Positions 3,187-35,779 of a DNA stretch of 64,000 nt are shown here, in pieces (position 1 is the first letter of the stretch; each line of letters starts with the position of its first letter). Under the pieces are notes generated by a model. The model was not told where the DNA came from. It saw nothing but the letters and a program-made list of their open reading frames with translations, and did no database searches. This DNA is from Pseudomonadota bacterium. GTDB taxonomy: Bacteria > Bdellovibrionota_B > Oligoflexia > Oligoflexales > CAIYRB01. The position numbers and the translations under genes were made by a program. The stretch covers positions 1 through 64,000 of the forward strand of contig JAPLFY010000027.1 of the NCBI GenBank assembly GCA_026390435.1, written 5' to 3'.

Positions 3187-4017
3187 ATGAGCAGCGTTCG
3201 CAAGGAACATATCAAAACCCTGAAGGGTCCGGATCAGTTTCAGGTGAAAGTCATGACGGGAGTGGATTGGGCCGTTAAAAACGTCCGAACCATCCTCATT
3301 GCCGTACTGCCAGTCGCGCTAGTCGTTGCCGGCCTCGCGGGCTACCGCCTGGTCCAGAGCAAGCGCAAGGATGCCAGAATTGAAGAGCTGGGTAAGTCCC
3401 AGGTGATTTATGATACCGAGGCCAGACGCGCTTCGGACCTGCAGAAGCCCATTCTAAAGAAGATGCAAGAAATCGAGGCCAAGGCCGCTCCTAAAGCAGC
3501 CGGCCAAGATGGCAGCAGCCTGACACCTCAGCAAGAACAGGAGGTTACAGCCCTTCGCAAACAGGCCGAGGCCATCAAGCCGGATCATGCGGCATCGACT
3601 GCGGCATTTCTCGCCTTCTATCAGAAGTACGAAAACCACGCCGAGGGCTGGTTAGCAGGGATGATGGCAGCACACAGTATGATCGGCGACAATAAGCTAG
3701 CCAACGCCAGCACCTTGCTCGAAGGGATAGCCAGCAAGTCGAAGGCAGATGCGACCTACCAAGCACTCGCCAATTTGGAACTTGCCGGGATCGCAGAAGA
3801 GCAAGGCGAATACGATCGCGAACTAAGCATTCTGACAAATCTCGAAATATCGACTAACAGTGATCTGAAACCCAAGCTACAACTGATGCGCGGCCGAGCC
3901 CTCTTTCTCAAAGGCGACAAAGCAGGCGCTAAAACTACTTTGAACACACTGATCGAAGGATACAGCAGTAGTACCGAAGCCCAAAAAGCTCGCTCACTGC
4001 TAACTTTGATCAACTAA
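3187..4017 (+). CDS. YfgM-like membrane-anchored TPR protein
   Basis: A protein of 276 residues with a cytoplasmic N-terminus, one transmembrane helix at about residues 35-53, and a helical TPR-like periplasmic region (about 130-276: AHSMIGDNKLANASTLLEGI and later repeats). This layout matches YfgM, the SecYEG/PpiD-associated chaperone, and E. coli yfgM also sits directly before bamB as here. Residues 85-120 are a charged, probably coiled-coil segment (ATALRKQAEAIK-type). The next gene starts 21 bases downstream, suggesting one operon. AAGGA precedes the start. The divergent MshEN gene leaves a 151-base shared promoter region. Assignment rests on architecture and neighbour rather than strong motif identity. 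Confidence 0.75.
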   Translation: MSSVRKEHIKTLKGPDQFQVKVMTGVDWAVKNVRTILIAVLPVALVVAGLAGYRLVQSKRKDARIEELGKSQVIYDTEARRASDLQKPILKKMQEIEAKAAPKAAGQDGSSLTPQQEQEVTALRKQAEAIKPDHAASTAAFLAFYQKYENHAEGWLAGMMAAHSMIGDNKLANASTLLEGIASKSKADATYQALANLELAGIAEEQGEYDRELSILTNLEISTNSDLKPKLQLMRGRALFLKGDKAGAKTTLNTLIEGYSSSTEAQKARSLLTLIN

Positions 4018-4038
4018 CTGATAGACAGGAGTGCGCGC

Positions 4039-5175
4039 ATGCTAGCGCGATGTATTGCGACAGCCTGGCTGGCGACTTTAGTTGCCGTCGGAGCAGATAG
4101 TGCAGCGGCTAGCCCCAGGTCTGACACCCAAGGGCGACCATTTCAGTTAGGCTGTTGGGAGCTGAATAAGCGCCTGGAACGCGAAAAGCCTCTTGCTGCC
4201 TTAGATCCCGCAGGTTTTGTCATCAACTCCGGCGTACTGGTCGGTGCCTTTGATGATCAGTGGGTGGGCGGCATGCCGCTCGCCACCAAGCGTGTTCAAT
4301 GGTGGATCGAGGCTAAGTCCACCCTGACCGCACCTCCTGGCTCCTTTGGTGGGTCAGTCGTGCTGGGTTTTCGCGACGGCAAGCTGATGCGCGTCGATGC
4401 TGTCTCCGGTAAGAAACTTTGGACAACTGACCTAGACTCTTTTACCGAACGACCGTTTATCCTCAACGGAACGACGCTCTATGCCGTGACGGCAGCGCAA
4501 GTACTGTACGCCCTTGATTTTCAGACAGGCAAGACACTTTGGGTCTTTGATGGCGGCTTTCCCGAAGGCTTAAGTATCCGCACAGGTGCCAAGCCCGTAG
4601 CATATGATAACAAAGTCATTTTCGGCACTGCCGCAGGCGAACTCATCGCCGTTGCTGCAGACAGCGGCAAATTAGTTTGGCGTTATAATCCCTCTTACAC
4701 TGATGCTCGCTTTCACGACTATGTAGGCGAAATGGTGGTGCGCGGAGGAAAGCTCATTGTCGCGCGCTACGACGGACTGGTAGCAGCCATAGATCTTACC
4801 GGCAGTATCCGCAACGTGATCTGGCAGGAGAAGCTGCCCGGCCTGACTACCTCAGCTTATCGCGGGGATCGCTACTATGTTGGCGCTCTCAATGGCGATG
4901 TCTATGCTCTGGATCCTGACAGTGCTGGACGCCGAATTTGGCGGCATGTCACGGGTGCTGCAGTGACCAATTTGGCCGTCGGCGAAACTGACGTGTTTGC
5001 CGCGGGAGTTGGGGGACGAATCACAGCCCTAGATGCCGCTACAGGCAACATCCGCTGGTATGATCGACTCGGCTCAGCAGTGGCTGGAGCACCCATGATT
5101 TATGAAGATGCGCTATATTTTACGACGGGTATGAAAGCGCTTTACGCTTACAGGCTGAAATCAGTGAAAAATTGA
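4039..5175 (+). CDS. BamB-like PQQ-type beta-propeller protein
   Basis: A protein of 378 residues, close to BamB (392 in E. coli). The N-terminal signal peptide ends around ADSAAAS. It carries repeated PQQ/propeller blades with the Ala/Gly-x-Asp...G-x-x-x-W signature: KKLWTTDLDS, GKTLWVFDGG, GKLVWRYNPS, RRIWRHVTG and GNIRWYDRLG. BamB is an outer-membrane lipoprotein of the beta-barrel assembly machine, but no lipobox cysteine is seen at the end of this signal peptide, so this copy may be soluble periplasmic or anchored through partners. It follows the YfgM-like gene with a CAGGAG site. It ends head-to-head with the minus-strand PHP gene, only 2 bases apart. Function is inferred from the fold and gene order. 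Confidence 0.75.
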   Translation: MLARCIATAWLATLVAVGADSAAASPRSDTQGRPFQLGCWELNKRLEREKPLAALDPAGFVINSGVLVGAFDDQWVGGMPLATKRVQWWIEAKSTLTAPPGSFGGSVVLGFRDGKLMRVDAVSGKKLWTTDLDSFTERPFILNGTTLYAVTAAQVLYALDFQTGKTLWVFDGGFPEGLSIRTGAKPVAYDNKVIFGTAAGELIAVAADSGKLVWRYNPSYTDARFHDYVGEMVVRGGKLIVARYDGLVAAIDLTGSIRNVIWQEKLPGLTTSAYRGDRYYVGALNGDVYALDPDSAGRRIWRHVTGAAVTNLAVGETDVFAAGVGGRITALDAATGNIRWYDRLGSAVAGAPMIYEDALYFTTGMKALYAYRLKSVKN

Positions 5176-5177
5176 AT

Positions 5178-6533
5178 TCAGCTTCCGCGCAGATCAAAGA
5201 AAAGTGGCGAGCTTTGGGTATAAGTCTGACGGTCTCTGCCCTGGTATAACCGAAAGTACAGCCCAAAGCGCCGCGGCATTAAGTCGCGGTTTAGCGGCAA
5301 TTGTAGAGTAAACTCGCCAGCGAATGGGAATTGATTTTCTCCTGTAGCTGGGAAGTCATAACTGGCAACGACGCGCCCACCCAACACCGCCTCCATACGG
5401 TACGGCTGTTCGGCACAGTCACCATCGTAATACCTAGCTTTGATGGTGATGTTATCCTTCGGCAAGTTCGCCTCGTTGAGGATGTCCCCCATCACAGCCC
5501 AACTTTGGTCACGGAGCTGGGCATTAACGGCAAAATGAATATGGCGATTTGTGGTCGCATAAAAATGGCGTGCCTTGAGCGCTTTTAGCAATTCTGCGCG
5601 AGACAGCTCAGGCATGAGCATGACGACGCGCGTCGGATCACGCGTGCCCCAGTCAGCATAATGCACATCTTGAGAACCCATAGCTCCCAACCACCACCCG
5701 AGTTGATTGGCTTCATCGATATACGGGATGCTACCGAAATAGCCACGAACGTAGCGCAGAAACTCGCTCCAATGGATCGTCTCTACGCCGACAAAACGTT
5801 GCACCAGTTCAGGATCTAGTGCGAACTGATCAAATTCAGTCGCAATCCGATAATCGTGAAATCCGGGATGCGCAAACATCACCAACGCTGACTGCTGCTC
5901 CGGCTGCTTCAGCCAGGCATAAAAATCATGCAGGTTGTAATCTTCAAAAGCATGGTGAACTTTAGGCGCATTCAGGACTGTATAGTGACCATACATTGGG
6001 TGACTGTATTCAAAGCCATATAGCGTGACGAAATCGGGACGCGCGGCAGCCTCTGCAATCTGTATCTGCGCTTCATAACGTCGTTCCTTACTAAACAGCC
6101 AATACTCCGGATGATCCGTGATGGCGAAAAAATCTAGATGCGCTACATCACGGGCAAACCGGTAAGCTTCCGCCACCGTCCCACGACCATCTGACTCACC
6201 TGTATGAGAGTGCAGCGTACCAAAATACGGCTTTAGCCTCGCACCAAGATTAATTGTGGTGACATCGCGATTGAGCATCGGCCTCTGTGCATTACGTATC
6301 TCTGGAGCAGCCAGGACTGGCACTTGGCACGGCGGCGTTAGCGGCGCTTGTGTCTGCAATGCCTGTTGCTGAGTTAACGCCTGAAATTCTAACTTTAACT
6401 CGGGAAGATTTAACATCGCTGGTGCTTGGGTGTCTGCATCGAGGATATGATGAGTCACCAATCGCCCAGAAGGCAGGATCCAAAGGCCGAGCCCCAGCAA
6501 CATTTTAGTATGCAGCCGGATGAGCGCCTCCAC
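5178..6533 (-). CDS. PHP-domain metallohydrolase (CehA/McbA-like)
   Basis: A protein of 451 residues. From about residue 100 it carries PHP metal-binding motifs: TLHSHTGESDGRG, then FAITDHPEY, a mid-domain FAHPGFHDY, and a late GSQDVHYADWG. These His/Asp clusters form the trinuclear metal site in the CehA/DUF3604-type branch, whose members cleave phosphoesters or related bonds. Residues 1-30 look like a weak membrane anchor or signal segment, suggesting an envelope or exported enzyme. The C-terminal 120 residues look like a beta-sandwich. Its start overlaps the end of the GT39 gene by 29 bases, so it is translationally coupled with a glycosyltransferase. A role in trimming or recycling a glycan phosphate is an inference only. 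Confidence 0.75.
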   Translation of the reverse strand: MEALIRLHTKMLLGLGLWILPSGRLVTHHILDADTQAPAMLNLPELKLEFQALTQQQALQTQAPLTPPCQVPVLAAPEIRNAQRPMLNRDVTTINLGARLKPYFGTLHSHTGESDGRGTVAEAYRFARDVAHLDFFAITDHPEYWLFSKERRYEAQIQIAEAAARPDFVTLYGFEYSHPMYGHYTVLNAPKVHHAFEDYNLHDFYAWLKQPEQQSALVMFAHPGFHDYRIATEFDQFALDPELVQRFVGVETIHWSEFLRYVRGYFGSIPYIDEANQLGWWLGAMGSQDVHYADWGTRDPTRVVMLMPELSRAELLKALKARHFYATTNRHIHFAVNAQLRDQSWAVMGDILNEANLPKDNITIKARYYDGDCAEQPYRMEAVLGGRVVASYDFPATGENQFPFAGEFTLQLPLNRDLMPRRFGLYFRLYQGRDRQTYTQSSPLFFDLRGS

Positions 6534-8100
6534 CGTAAGAGTGCATAGCAGATGCTGCTTGTTCCAACTCTGCTAGGGAGCGGAATCGGCCGTACAGTGC
6601 AATAACATCAGTGTCGCGATGAGACGGAACTAAGACGCTCCACTGCTGCCAGTCACCAAGTACTTTGTGCAACTGATCCGCATCCAAATGCCGCGCATCA
6701 GCAATCACCAACACCGGACAATTAGCATAATCAGGCAAATAATCGCGGTAGTTATAGTAGGAGCGATGATTTTGGTCCAATGACACCACGCGGGGCTGTC
6801 CAGGCAGATGAAAAGCCAACTGCGCCGACCAAAACCAACGTAGAGATGCCACCGTGATAGTCTGCGGACAGTTACCTTGCTCAACGGCCTTCCCGTCCGC
6901 TTTTAGATACGAGGCAACTCTAGCATCTTGCATTAGTGATTCACTAAGAGGCTGCCAAAGCGTTAGTTCCGAAAGTGGCCCGGGCTTGCCATCAAACGAA
7001 TTTACCAGGGCCTCGCGCAGCGGCTTTAGCGTCAACACCCAGGGCAGGCCCCATGCGATGATTACCGCCAAGACAAAATTGGCACGGAAAGCCCAGCGCG
7101 GCCAGCTCGTGAGCGCCAGCAGAGGCAAGACCATCCAGCATGCTGGAGCGAGCCAATGGGGCAACATCTGTTTACCAAAGGCCAATATCTCAAGTAGTGC
7201 GAATAGCGGTGCCGCTGCAGCCACCGGCAGTAGAGTTAGGCTTAAATCGCGCTGGCGCCAAATCCCCTGGATCGTCCCGATCACCACCAGCGGCGACAAA
7301 ATGAGAAGCTGACCGAGGTAAACCCGAGCTGCGGCCAGGGGAGTAAAACTTAACCCGGCAAAACCATGCGCACTTTGGAAGCGAAACGAGGCCCAGTCGT
7401 GAGACGCATTCCAAATCAACACGGGCGACGTCACTAACAAAGCCAGCAACGCAGTAACTATGAGAAATCCAACAAACTCACCGAGACGTTGACGACGGCT
7501 ACCATAAATCAGCAGACCAATCCCCAGACCGCACGCAACCGGTGCTGCATGATACTTACAGAGACCGGCAGCACCCACAGCGAGCCCCGCTGGTAACACC
7601 CACCGCCAGGCGCGTCCGTGCTCACTGCTGGCTGCTCGCAAGAAAGTATAAAGACTTAATGCTAGTGCTAGCAGTAGTCCGGAGTCAGGGAGAAGTAACA
7701 CGCCCTCTAGGGAAAAAGCAGGAACGACTTCGGTAAATACTAAAAGCGTCCAGACCTGAGCCCTGGTTAAACGTTCACCCTTTAAAACCCCGGCGCAAGC
7801 CAACAGAACCAGAGTCGCGGCAAGGTGCAAAAACGGCAGCAAGAATCGTGGCCCCAAAGCAGTCTGGGAGCCCATGATGGCATCCCCAAGTGCTGCCACC
7901 CATGCCACTGCCGGCGGATGATCGATGAAACTAAGCTGCAGCGCCCGTGACCAATCCCAATAATAAGCTTCATCATTGGCAAGCGGCGCAGCATAAGCCC
8001 AGTAAAGCCGCACGGCCAAAGTAAGTAGTAGAAAAATTAAAGTACCGCGCTGCTGCCGACCGGTCACAGCAGCTCCCGACGACCTTTTTCCGTCAGCCAA
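6505..8100 (-). CDS. GT39-family membrane glycosyltransferase (PMT_2 type)
   Basis: A polytopic membrane protein of 531 residues. Near residue 40 it has the acidic motif of GT-C enzymes (NDEAYYWDWSRALQLSFIDHP), followed by about ten hydrophobic helices to residue 380 and a soluble C-terminal domain. The family (ArnT, protein-mannosyltransferase-like) transfers a sugar from a polyprenyl phosphate carrier on the periplasmic face. The preceding gene makes GDP-mannose, and a polyprenyl-phosphate-mannose synthase lies at 32512-33327, so mannosyl transfer is a reasonable guess. The start codon lies 37 bases inside manC. That is a long overlap, and a slightly later start is possible, though no better one with a ribosome site was seen. 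Confidence 0.85.
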   Translation of the reverse strand: MADGKRSSGAAVTGRQQRGTLIFLLLTLAVRLYWAYAAPLANDEAYYWDWSRALQLSFIDHPPAVAWVAALGDAIMGSQTALGPRFLLPFLHLAATLVLLACAGVLKGERLTRAQVWTLLVFTEVVPAFSLEGVLLLPDSGLLLALALSLYTFLRAASSEHGRAWRWVLPAGLAVGAAGLCKYHAAPVACGLGIGLLIYGSRRQRLGEFVGFLIVTALLALLVTSPVLIWNASHDWASFRFQSAHGFAGLSFTPLAAARVYLGQLLILSPLVVIGTIQGIWRQRDLSLTLLPVAAAAPLFALLEILAFGKQMLPHWLAPACWMVLPLLALTSWPRWAFRANFVLAVIIAWGLPWVLTLKPLREALVNSFDGKPGPLSELTLWQPLSESLMQDARVASYLKADGKAVEQGNCPQTITVASLRWFWSAQLAFHLPGQPRVVSLDQNHRSYYNYRDYLPDYANCPVLVIADARHLDADQLHKVLGDWQQWSVLVPSHRDTDVIALYGRFRSLAELEQAASAMHSYGGGAHPAAY

Positions 8101-33416: not shown

Positions 33417-33623
33417 ATGAGTGACGACGATAACGAAAAAAATGTCGTGAATTTAGCTGATGCTAGGCGCCGCCAGCGCACCGCGCGCGTCACCCCAAAA
33501 GCCGGCAAAAGCAAATCCAGCAAGGGTCCCATCGGCCTGACAGGTAAGGTATGGGTATACGCCCAGGCCCTGGTATTTCTAGCTCTGGTGTCTTATTTTA
33601 TGAGGCTGTGCAAAGGGCCGTAA
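33417..33623 (+). CDS. Small basic membrane protein
   Basis: A protein of 68 residues from ATG 33417 (an upstream in-frame ATG at 33381 would add 12). A charged N-terminus with NVVNLADARRRQ, a Lys/Ser-rich linker, then one hydrophobic helix (about 46-62: KVWVYAQALVFLALVSYF). No family was recognised. The opening resembles small conserved proteins with a VVxLxxARRR segment. The ribosome site is weak. Divergent from the DPM1 gene. The next 107 bases to the Fic gene hold nothing I recognise. Confidence 0.5.
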   Translation: MSDDDNEKNVVNLADARRRQRTARVTPKAGKSKSSKGPIGLTGKVWVYAQALVFLALVSYFMRLCKGP

Positions 33624-33730
33624 TAGCAGGTCGTAACTAGCGCCATCGCCTCAGATCAGCCATTGTGATATCGGCAAAGGCCGCAACTTCCTCGGTAATA
33701 GCGGAGTATCTGGCAAAGCTCACGCCTTAT

Positions 33731-35227
33731 TCAGAAGAGAAGAACGTCCTCTGGGTCGTCAGAGAACGCCTTGGCTCGGGCCAGCGTCCGCTGTGCAGAT
33801 TCGAAGGTCGTATAGTCGATGGATGCGGTGAAGCACTGGGCGCGCTTCAACATCTTTATATAGACGGCCGGATTGTCGCTGCGCGTTAGCTTCTTCACGC
33901 CGCCAAGGTAGTCCAAGCGGTAGACCGTCGGGATGATGATGGGTACCTCGGACGCCGCGTACAGCTCACGGTTCATGGCGATTCGGCTCAATCGGCCGTT
34001 GCCGTCCGTAAAGGGGTGTACCTCGGCCACCAGGAATTTGACGAAGGCAGCGCGAGCGAAACCGGGCTCAAGCGCCTGGAGGAACTCGAAGCCCTTATGT
34101 AGTGTCCCTTCCACCAGCTCTGGTTCGACGAAGGCAGTGGAGCCAGCAAAATTGCGGACACTCTTGAACTGGCCAGGAAGCTTGTCCGGGTGTGCCTTCA
34201 TGATCGACGCGTGGTAACGCATTAGGTCAGCCGCCATCGTTCCGTATGACGCCCAAGTCTCGGGACGAGTCGAGGCTATCCCCATCAGCGTACGGAAGGT
34301 GCCGAGCATGTCGTGTCCGTCCGGACGCCGGTCGGGAATCTTGCCCTCAAAGGCGATGGCGCGTGCTTCGTCAATCTCGAATCGGGTTCCCTCGATGTAG
34401 TTCGAGAAGTAAGCGTCGAAGAAGCACAATGTCGATGGAGCGCTACCCGAGTGGAGAACCGCATCTAGGGGTAGCTTCGTGGGCAGGCTCGCCGGTTGGC
34501 GAAGCGCCTGAAATAGTCGCTCGAAGCGAACGACCCTCTCCGGATCATAGGGAAAGCCGGTCGCCCTCTGTTGCGCGCGGTCCGATTTGAGGGTCCCATC
34601 GGTGCGAGTCTTTAACATGGTCCCGACCAGTTTTTGGAATCTCTCCGCCTCCTGGGTGAATCCGTTAGCCTCTGCCAGGCGGTGGAGGGCATTTATCCTC
34701 TCCCGAAAGGCGTTCTCGCCGCTGACGCGGATATAGTCGTCGAGATGCTCCTCTAGCTTCTCCTGTGAGAGCACTTTGCTGAACCCGCCGTGAGCCTTGA
34801 CGTGGCGCAGATTCTCCAACCAGGCCCGTTCAGGAGACGCGAGATGCAGCCCCCCAGCGAATGGCATGTCGCCCGGGAGCGCCTCCGGCCCCTTGACCAA
34901 ATGCACGGTCAGGCCCGGGAGTCGCACTTTCTTGTCGTACTTGTAGGAGAGAACGATGTGCCAGTCGTCACTCAGCTTGGCTGGGCCTGCCTCCAGGGCG
35001 CTACGGTGGCTGATAATCGCACCTGCATAGAGCGCGCCCAGGACCTGGTATAGGTTACGCCGGAGAACATCAGCCGGCTCTTCCGCAATTGCGGTTGTAT
35101 AGATGCCGGGGGCGAGGCGGCGAAGCCCCCCTACCTTGACGGCCTCCGAGATAGCATTTGCGAGAGTCCCAGCGCCTGTCGAAAGGACCAACTCGCCCAT
35201 GAGGTTTTGACGGATGACAGGTCGCAT
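33731..35227 (-). CDS. AbiEi-like winged-helix/antitoxin domain fused to Fic AMPylase
   Basis: A protein of 498 residues with two parts. Residues 1-165 resemble AbiEi-type type IV antitoxin/transcription-factor N-termini: a winged-helix stretch with GGLRRLAPGIYTT (34-45), then AGAIISHRSALEAGP and the beta-rich DDWHIVLSYKYDKKVRLPGL. Residues 225-498 are a Fic domain. It keeps the inhibitory motif SNYIEG at 275-280 (S/T-x-x-x-E-G/N, class II position) and the complete catalytic HPFTDGNGRLSR at 404-415. Fic enzymes transfer AMP from ATP to a target protein hydroxyl. Base composition looks more G+C-rich than neighbours, suggesting transfer. A palindrome at 35276-35291 upstream suits self-regulation. 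Confidence 0.85.
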   Translation of the reverse strand: MRPVIRQNLMGELVLSTGAGTLANAISEAVKVGGLRRLAPGIYTTAIAEEPADVLRRNLYQVLGALYAGAIISHRSALEAGPAKLSDDWHIVLSYKYDKKVRLPGLTVHLVKGPEALPGDMPFAGGLHLASPERAWLENLRHVKAHGGFSKVLSQEKLEEHLDDYIRVSGENAFRERINALHRLAEANGFTQEAERFQKLVGTMLKTRTDGTLKSDRAQQRATGFPYDPERVVRFERLFQALRQPASLPTKLPLDAVLHSGSAPSTLCFFDAYFSNYIEGTRFEIDEARAIAFEGKIPDRRPDGHDMLGTFRTLMGIASTRPETWASYGTMAADLMRYHASIMKAHPDKLPGQFKSVRNFAGSTAFVEPELVEGTLHKGFEFLQALEPGFARAAFVKFLVAEVHPFTDGNGRLSRIAMNRELYAASEVPIIIPTVYRLDYLGGVKKLTRSDNPAVYIKMLKRAQCFTASIDYTTFESAQRTLARAKAFSDDPEDVLLF

Positions 35228-35275
35228 AAGCCCCCCGGCGGGCGTGAAATTCTGTCCGAGGAGTGGCCCGCGTGC

Positions 35276-35291
35276 ATTACCTATCGGTAAT
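35276..35291. promoter_or_regulatory. Palindromic operator candidate upstream of the Fic gene
   Basis: ATTACC (35276-35281) and GGTAAT (35286-35291) form a perfect inverted repeat with a 4-base spacer, about 50 bases upstream of the Fic start. Next to it (35300-35350) is a very AT-rich stretch containing TATATT on the minus strand, a likely promoter region. The fusion protein's winged-helix domain is the obvious candidate binder; this is inference. Confidence 0.45.
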
Positions 35292-35485
35292 TTTCATCCA
35301 AAAAAACCCTTTTGTCGTGAATTTTTTTCTAATATATAAATATTCTGTGAAATCATTTACTTATGGAATATAGGAGTCGCTCGAGCCCGCATAGTAGGAA
35401 AATTTTCACACTAAATCATGAATCCTGGATGAATCTTCACATCATTCCGGAGTCAGCCACCTTTGGCGTGACAACAACAAAATTT

Positions 35486-35779
35486 TTATGGCTGACGCGC
35501 CTGCTCGAGATAGAGCAGCCATGCTGCAGCGGTCAAATCGCGCTTCTGATTGTTGCAAGGCTTGCAGGCCGGCACGATGTTGCCAGGGGTGGATCTTCCG
35601 CCCTGCGCGATCGGCACCACGTGATCCATGGTGACCTCCGATTTCTCCAATGATTTCGAGCAATAGTAGCAGGTCGCCTTGGTGATCAGCGTCTGCCACC
35701 ACCTAGACTTACGCAAAAGCCGCGCCTCTTCACGCTCGCGCCGCAGATGCTTATCTGAAGAAAAGTCGCCGAAATCCAC
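35486..35779 (-). CDS. HNH endonuclease
   Basis: A small HNH nuclease of 97 residues from the GTG at 35777-35779 (GAGGG seven bases upstream; a TTG six bases earlier is less likely). It has zinc-finger-flanked HNH motifs: CYYCSKSLEKSEVTMDHVVP with CxxC and the DH pair, GGRSTPGNIVPAC, and CKPCNNQKRDL with the second CxxC and the Asn/Lys. This McrA-like domain cuts DNA in a metal-dependent way. It stands alone, 259 bases from the Fic gene start and on the same strand, upstream. Those bases are AT-rich with the operator candidate. Role unclear: defence, mobile-element remnant or repair. Confidence 0.85.
   Translation of the reverse strand: MDFGDFSSDKHLRREREEARLLRKSRWWQTLITKATCYYCSKSLEKSEVTMDHVVPIAQGGRSTPGNIVPACKPCNNQKRDLTAAAWLLYLEQARQP

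Follow-up and report, generated by a model that had tools for sequence, protein, structure and literature searches.

A mobile AbiEi-like/Fic fusion gene with spaced direct repeats upstream: a probable self-inhibited and self-repressing AMPylator

The minus-strand gene at positions 33731–35227 of the window (the whole stretch of 64,000 nucleotides analysed here) starts with an ATG and encodes a protein of 498 residues, in which an AbiEi-like module is fused to a Fic domain. This architecture, referred to below as AbiEi-Fic, is shared with full-length relatives. We consider that AbiEi-Fic is probably cargo of mobile elements and acts as an AMPylator that inhibits itself and represses its own promoter. 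Computation establishes the architecture, the intact motifs, the conserved array of spaced boxes upstream of the gene, the insertion, and the occurrence on plasmids and in prophages, while we infer its DNA binding, repression, AMPylation and toxicity, as well as a cellular target and a trigger.

The Fic half and its inhibitory motif

The catalytic motif HPFTDGNGRLSR (residues 404–415; positions 33983–34018, minus strand) conforms to the class II pattern HxFx[DE]GNGRxxR, and HPFxDGNGRxxR is invariant across the relatives. The inhibitory pattern of this class, [ST]xxxE[GN], is found N-terminal to it, as SNYIEG (residues 275–280, with Glu279; positions 34388–34405, minus strand) on a helix modelled at residues 263–278. 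The motif S-N-[YF]-I-E-G is present in 10 of the 10 members of the family alignment. A complete Fic motif and an inhibitory SNYIEG on one chain, as read in the initial annotation, are confirmed, and their key residues are invariant in this ten-member alignment, in which the members from beyond the genus share 34–44% identity with the window protein. Fic (PF02661; 2.6e-12) is the sole domain that Pfam finds in the window protein, and the Fic half of a full-length model (pLDDT 87.8, pTM 0.81) matches FICD and other Fic structures in a fold search. Both halves of the gene are under purifying selection (dN/dS of 0.09–0.16 against two same-genus copies). The sequence supports a Fic domain that is predicted to be self-inhibited and catalytically complete. 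As a counterpoint to toxicity, wild-type Fic proteins of class II are in many cases non-toxic unless the glutamate is removed.

An AbiEi-like module at the N-terminus

Residues 1–145 (positions 34793–35227, minus strand) form the putative AbiEi-like module, with a winged HTH at about residues 1–46 followed by the AbiEi core. A profile of the family N-terminus was aligned with hhalign to a profile of seven AbiEi-family proteins taken from the window's own genome, whose loci also contain AbiEii-like ORFs (as judged by eye). The alignment (E-value of 1.9e-6, probability of 89.6%, 121 columns) extends over the winged HTH as well as the AbiEi core, whereas the Fic half, used as a control, reached a probability of 0.3%. 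Among the matches listed, the fold search with the full-length model returned Fic structures only, and the N-terminus was therefore modelled alone. The AlphaFold2 model of residues 1–210 (pLDDT 87.8) has a single match below 1e-3 in the PDB, which is the AbiEi of S. agalactiae (PDB entry 6y8q; 8.9e-5, TM-scores of 0.47/0.50).

We also tried the family libraries Pfam, NCBIfam, PADLOC and PHROGs on the N-terminus. The NCBIfam model TAA_AbiEi scores 12.3 bits (0.099), below its cut-off of 150; Pfam AbiEi_4 scores 12.7 bits, below its cut-off of 25, and gives 0.013 in one of ten relatives; and several PADLOC AbiEi models give sub-threshold values of 2e-3 to 5e-2. No relative emerged when PDB sequences were searched with an N-terminal profile. 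The AbiEi-like character first proposed for this region is upheld by the profile–profile alignment and by the fold of 6y8q, but not by the Pfam and NCBIfam cut-offs. Taken together, the profiles and the model support an AbiEi-like, presumably DNA-binding, module.

A recent insertion in the genome of the window

The fusion gene has a GC content of 59.8%, compared with 52% for the window, and a GC3 of 72%, compared with 56–61% in six neighbouring genes. Its composition had already suggested transfer, and this contrast is joined by an empty site in the sister genome G002, in which 23 bp stand in place of 1863 bp of the window (positions 33624–35486). The flanks at 33623 and 35487 align to positions 1603 and 1627 of the sister locus (L083), and the flanking proteins are 97% and 94% identical between the two genomes. 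The 1.86 kb segment, which contains the fusion gene and its upstream region and nothing else, is a recent insertion.

The ORFs that neighbour the window gene are of the HNH, ABC transporter and glycosyltransferase types, and none of the adjoining ones is an AbiEii-type toxin gene. Within the genus of the window, a full copy is found in three genomes (including that of the window) and the copy of a fourth genome is cut by a contig end; in the phylum sample, no genome outside these four carries one. A scan of genome contigs with the single window protein likewise returned a same-genus copy only. The copies occupy different loci: that of G003 adjoins a gene for a PIN-domain protein and a fragment of an IS91-type transposase, that of G001 adjoins a SocA/Panacea-Fic pair and a Fic-MerR gene, and that of G004 lies at yet another locus. 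No integron-cassette ends were recognized by eye at the insertion boundaries, and an Rfam search of the ortholog contigs gave no match. In three genomes, and at different loci, the homology between copies starts near the same point (GATGTGAAGATTCATCC; position 35450 of the window, 1178 of L088 and 6145 of L090). This common start may mark the boundary of a mobile unit; no mobilization gene was recognized.

Three further observations concern these genomes. In G001 (L090, contig C77, positions 3423–6703) three Fic-type genes follow one another, namely the SocA/Panacea-Fic pair, the Fic-MerR fusion and AbiEi-Fic at the contig end. In G003 (L088, contig C166, positions 3596–4936), a reverse-transcriptase gene (Pfam RVT_1) next to the AbiEi-Fic copy precedes a short ORF whose end resembles a variable region (RGGDWNNGANDG...GFRCAYW), and the two may, as judged by eye, form a diversity-generating retroelement. 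The window's own genome carries some seven genes of the AbiEi family, on contigs C7, C54, C132, C107, C140 and C123 (L061–L067), each locus set also containing AbiEii-like ORFs, and is unusually rich in probable type IV toxin–antitoxin loci.

Relatives on plasmids and in prophages

How common the fusion is, a question raised at the outset, can now be answered in part: among 72,556 plasmid records, 19 carry this architecture, and so do at least 20 contigs of IMG/VR. Full-length relatives, with 34–45% identity, are found on plasmids of Pseudomonadota and Bacteroidota and in prophages. The plasmid hosts of relatives that contain the N-terminus are Novosphingobium (pNL1), Sphingorhabdus, Hymenobacter, Bacteroides/Phocaeicola, Rhizobium/Neorhizobium, Alteromonas and Variovorax, and the relatives, where annotated at all, are labelled as Fic proteins only. 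Three further queries recovered the same 19 plasmid records, so that the plasmid set looks complete at the given sensitivity. The viral contigs gave twenty near-full-length family members, to which scans of these contigs with single proteins added none. One copy lies within a phage tail module (L030), another within a head module (L042) and a third between a repressor-like and an integrase-like ORF (L029, by eye). A Bacteroidota-like member (L035, positions 4001–5444) has a frameshifted reading frame, which reflects either decay or an assembly error.

Copies in prophage head and tail modules would be compatible with a role in anti-phage abortive infection, in which the phage frees the inhibited Fic domain and the cell halts, as proposed for Sofic, which is known to protect against phage (PMC12249575). 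The PADLOC models SoFic and PDC-S04 do match the Fic half of AbiEi-Fic, but these models match any Fic domain. Moreover, the window gene has ordinary chromosomal neighbours rather than a defence island, and maintenance or competition would suit plasmid and prophage cargo equally well. We regard an anti-phage function as possible but rather unlikely.

Direct repeats upstream of the gene

The palindrome ATTACCtatcGGTAAT at positions 35276–35291 was initially taken for an operator. A palindrome of equal quality is contained in 21% of shuffled 150 bp stretches, and the same-genus orthologs keep its left half and have lost its right half (ATTACCGATAGTCCAT and ATTACCGATAAGCTAC). It overlaps box 2 (see below), and we rejected it as an operator by itself; an array of direct-repeat boxes, a much stronger element, was found instead. 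No consistent inverted-repeat signal was seen across the family, and a simple scan upstream of the gene detected no σ70-like promoter or terminator.

Three boxes in direct orientation precede the start codon on the minus strand. Box 1, TTAGAAAAAAATTCACGACA (positions 35313–35332; −105 to −86 from the ATG), is kept in the same-genus copies. Box 2, TTGGATGAAAATTACCGATA (positions 35282–35301; −74 to −55), follows it at 31 bp, and nowhere else in the window's genome is the consensus of these two boxes matched with fewer than three mismatches. The weaker box 3, TCGGACAGAATTTCACGCCC (positions 35240–35259; −32 to −13; shuffle P = 0.001), lies 42 bp after box 2, a spacing retained in 4 of 4 members of the genus.

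The spacing recurs throughout the family. The best ungapped direct repeat upstream of the gene is spaced by 30–32 bp in 20 of 27 relatives, compared with 29 of 459 control windows (counted over 30–33 bp) and 6.5% of shuffles. Over 16 clusters, drawn by eye on protein similarity to limit relatedness and not fully independent, the combined z at 31 bp is 19.3, with z above 2 in 12 clusters; the next-ranked spacings are 32, 72, 41 and 30 bp, and in 4 of the 16 clusters the best spacing lies outside 30–32 bp. The 31 bp signal is absent from two control regions. It should be noted that the spacing test was conceived only after the repeats had been noticed, and that the start codons of the relatives are either those annotated or the plausible first ATG; the effect is nevertheless large enough that these statistical caveats should not remove it.

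The sequence of the boxes varies by lineage while their spacing is constant, and the copies within one locus are alike, which would fit a protein that maintains its own set of sites in each case. The number of boxes differs between loci: there are five in L034, at successive distances of 31, 41, 31 and 31 bp, four in L057 and three in L029. These distances are close to three (about 31 bp) and four (41–42 bp) turns of B-DNA. The presence of such boxes across distant bacteria suggests, at the level of sequence, that the protein controls its own gene in a manner not described before.

Could the repeats be unrelated to the protein, for instance remnants of tandem duplications, iterons or sites of another regulator? 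Intergenic DNA that is rich in AT often contains direct repeats; however, the 31 bp spacing is found again in distant hosts whose boxes differ in sequence, the boxes travel together with the gene, and neither the control regions nor standalone AbiEi loci have such a spacing (no 31 bp peak at 31 standalone AbiEi loci of the relatives). We consider this explanation very improbable. The same 31 standalone loci give a weaker direct-repeat peak at 21 bp (z of 5.2), or about two helical turns, and 21 bp is the best spacing upstream of the AbiEi genes in L091 and L105.

Comparison with known systems and proposed mechanism

Fic and AbiEi are each well known already, and Fic-HTH fusions had been described by 2009 (PMC2686095). 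The closest tested parallel to AbiEi-Fic is CccR of Yersinia pseudotuberculosis, which carries a class II Fic domain, an SxxxEG inhibitory motif and a DNA-binding domain on one chain; it represses its own promoter, AMPylates FtsZ and is toxic in E. coli, its repression and its toxicity being independent (PMC9755527). Its HTH, however, is C-terminal and not of the AbiEi type, whereas the module of the window protein is N-terminal; its operator is described as palindromic 10 bp repeats with a 26 bp spacer, and it is secreted via a type VI system (PMC9755527). Sofic/SO_4266 and CbFic2 of Coxiella are likewise class II Fic proteins that inhibit themselves and carry a DNA-binding-type domain (PMC2686095, PMC10628234, PMC12249575), but the former has a C-terminal wHTH and the latter a C-terminal DeoR-type HTH and an N-terminal DUF4172, so that both have only the Fic part in common with AbiEi-Fic.

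On the other side, AbiEi-Fic shares the winged HTH and AbiEi core with the AbiEi antitoxins (S. agalactiae AbiEi, PDB entry 6y8q, and M. tuberculosis Rv2827c), which differ in being separate proteins with an AbiEii nucleotidyltransferase as their partner. The known members bind as monomers to sites of about 23 bp, cooperatively in the case of AbiEi, and repress their own gene; their published operators are inverted repeats, unlike the direct repeats 31 bp apart of AbiEi-Fic (PMC3985639, PMC7319586). The AbiEi antitoxins are reported to act as transcriptional repressors and to neutralize AbiEii without interaction (PMC3985639).

We propose that AbiEi-Fic is a single-gene, toxin–antitoxin-like module carried by plasmids and prophages. 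Its C-terminal Fic AMP transferase would be kept off by its own SNYIEG helix, with Glu279 pointing toward the active site, and its N-terminal AbiEi-type module would bind the array of boxes just upstream of the start codon. With boxes about 31 bp (three turns) or 41–42 bp (four turns) apart, several molecules would occupy a single face of the DNA, thereby repressing the gene. Once repression is lost and the inhibitory helix is released, the enzyme would modify a cell protein and growth would stop. The earlier view of a one-protein toxin–antitoxin system agrees with this scheme as regards a DNA-binding module and an inhibited Fic domain on one chain with probable self-regulation, but it went too far in making AbiEi the antitoxin of Fic: the SNYIEG helix is the inhibitor in cis, an AbiEii partner is absent, and homology to AbiEi does not give the N-terminus that role.

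DNA might also control the enzyme of AbiEi-Fic, by analogy with CbFic2, in which DNA-induced dimerization stimulates both AMPylation and deAMPylation (PMC10628234). Taken further, DNA binding would chiefly serve this control, with neighbours on the spaced boxes dimerizing or separating to switch between AMPylation and deAMPylation and any promoter effect being secondary. A box spacing of whole helical turns does favour contacts between neighbours. However, the boxes are confined to the promoter of this gene, as in a classic self-repression site, and CccR keeps repression independent of toxicity (PMC9755527), and we find such a primary role in enzyme control unlikely. It is similarly improbable, if slightly more so, that the array combines the two functions, being a repressor site and also a switch on which aligned AbiEi-Fic molecules are held inactive or deAMPylating. 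If it did, stripping or titrating the array would both raise expression and start AMPylation, which would make AbiEi-Fic a one-protein DNA-sensing toxin, with replication, phage takeover or competing boxes on an incoming element as possible triggers.

Open-licence full texts yielded no account of a fusion between AbiEi and Fic, nor of operators made of spaced direct repeats in either family. It has been stated that about 80% of Fic proteins belong to class II and that hardly anything is known of what they do (PMC9755527). The AbiEi-Fic family offers a concrete, mobile and testable class II example whose sequence is enough to name every part: inhibitor, enzyme, DNA-binding module and boxes. In this family, an AbiEi-type domain would have left its two-gene type IV setting for another toxin chemistry, and the upstream arrays suggest that such domains can recognize spaced direct repeats in addition to inverted repeats.
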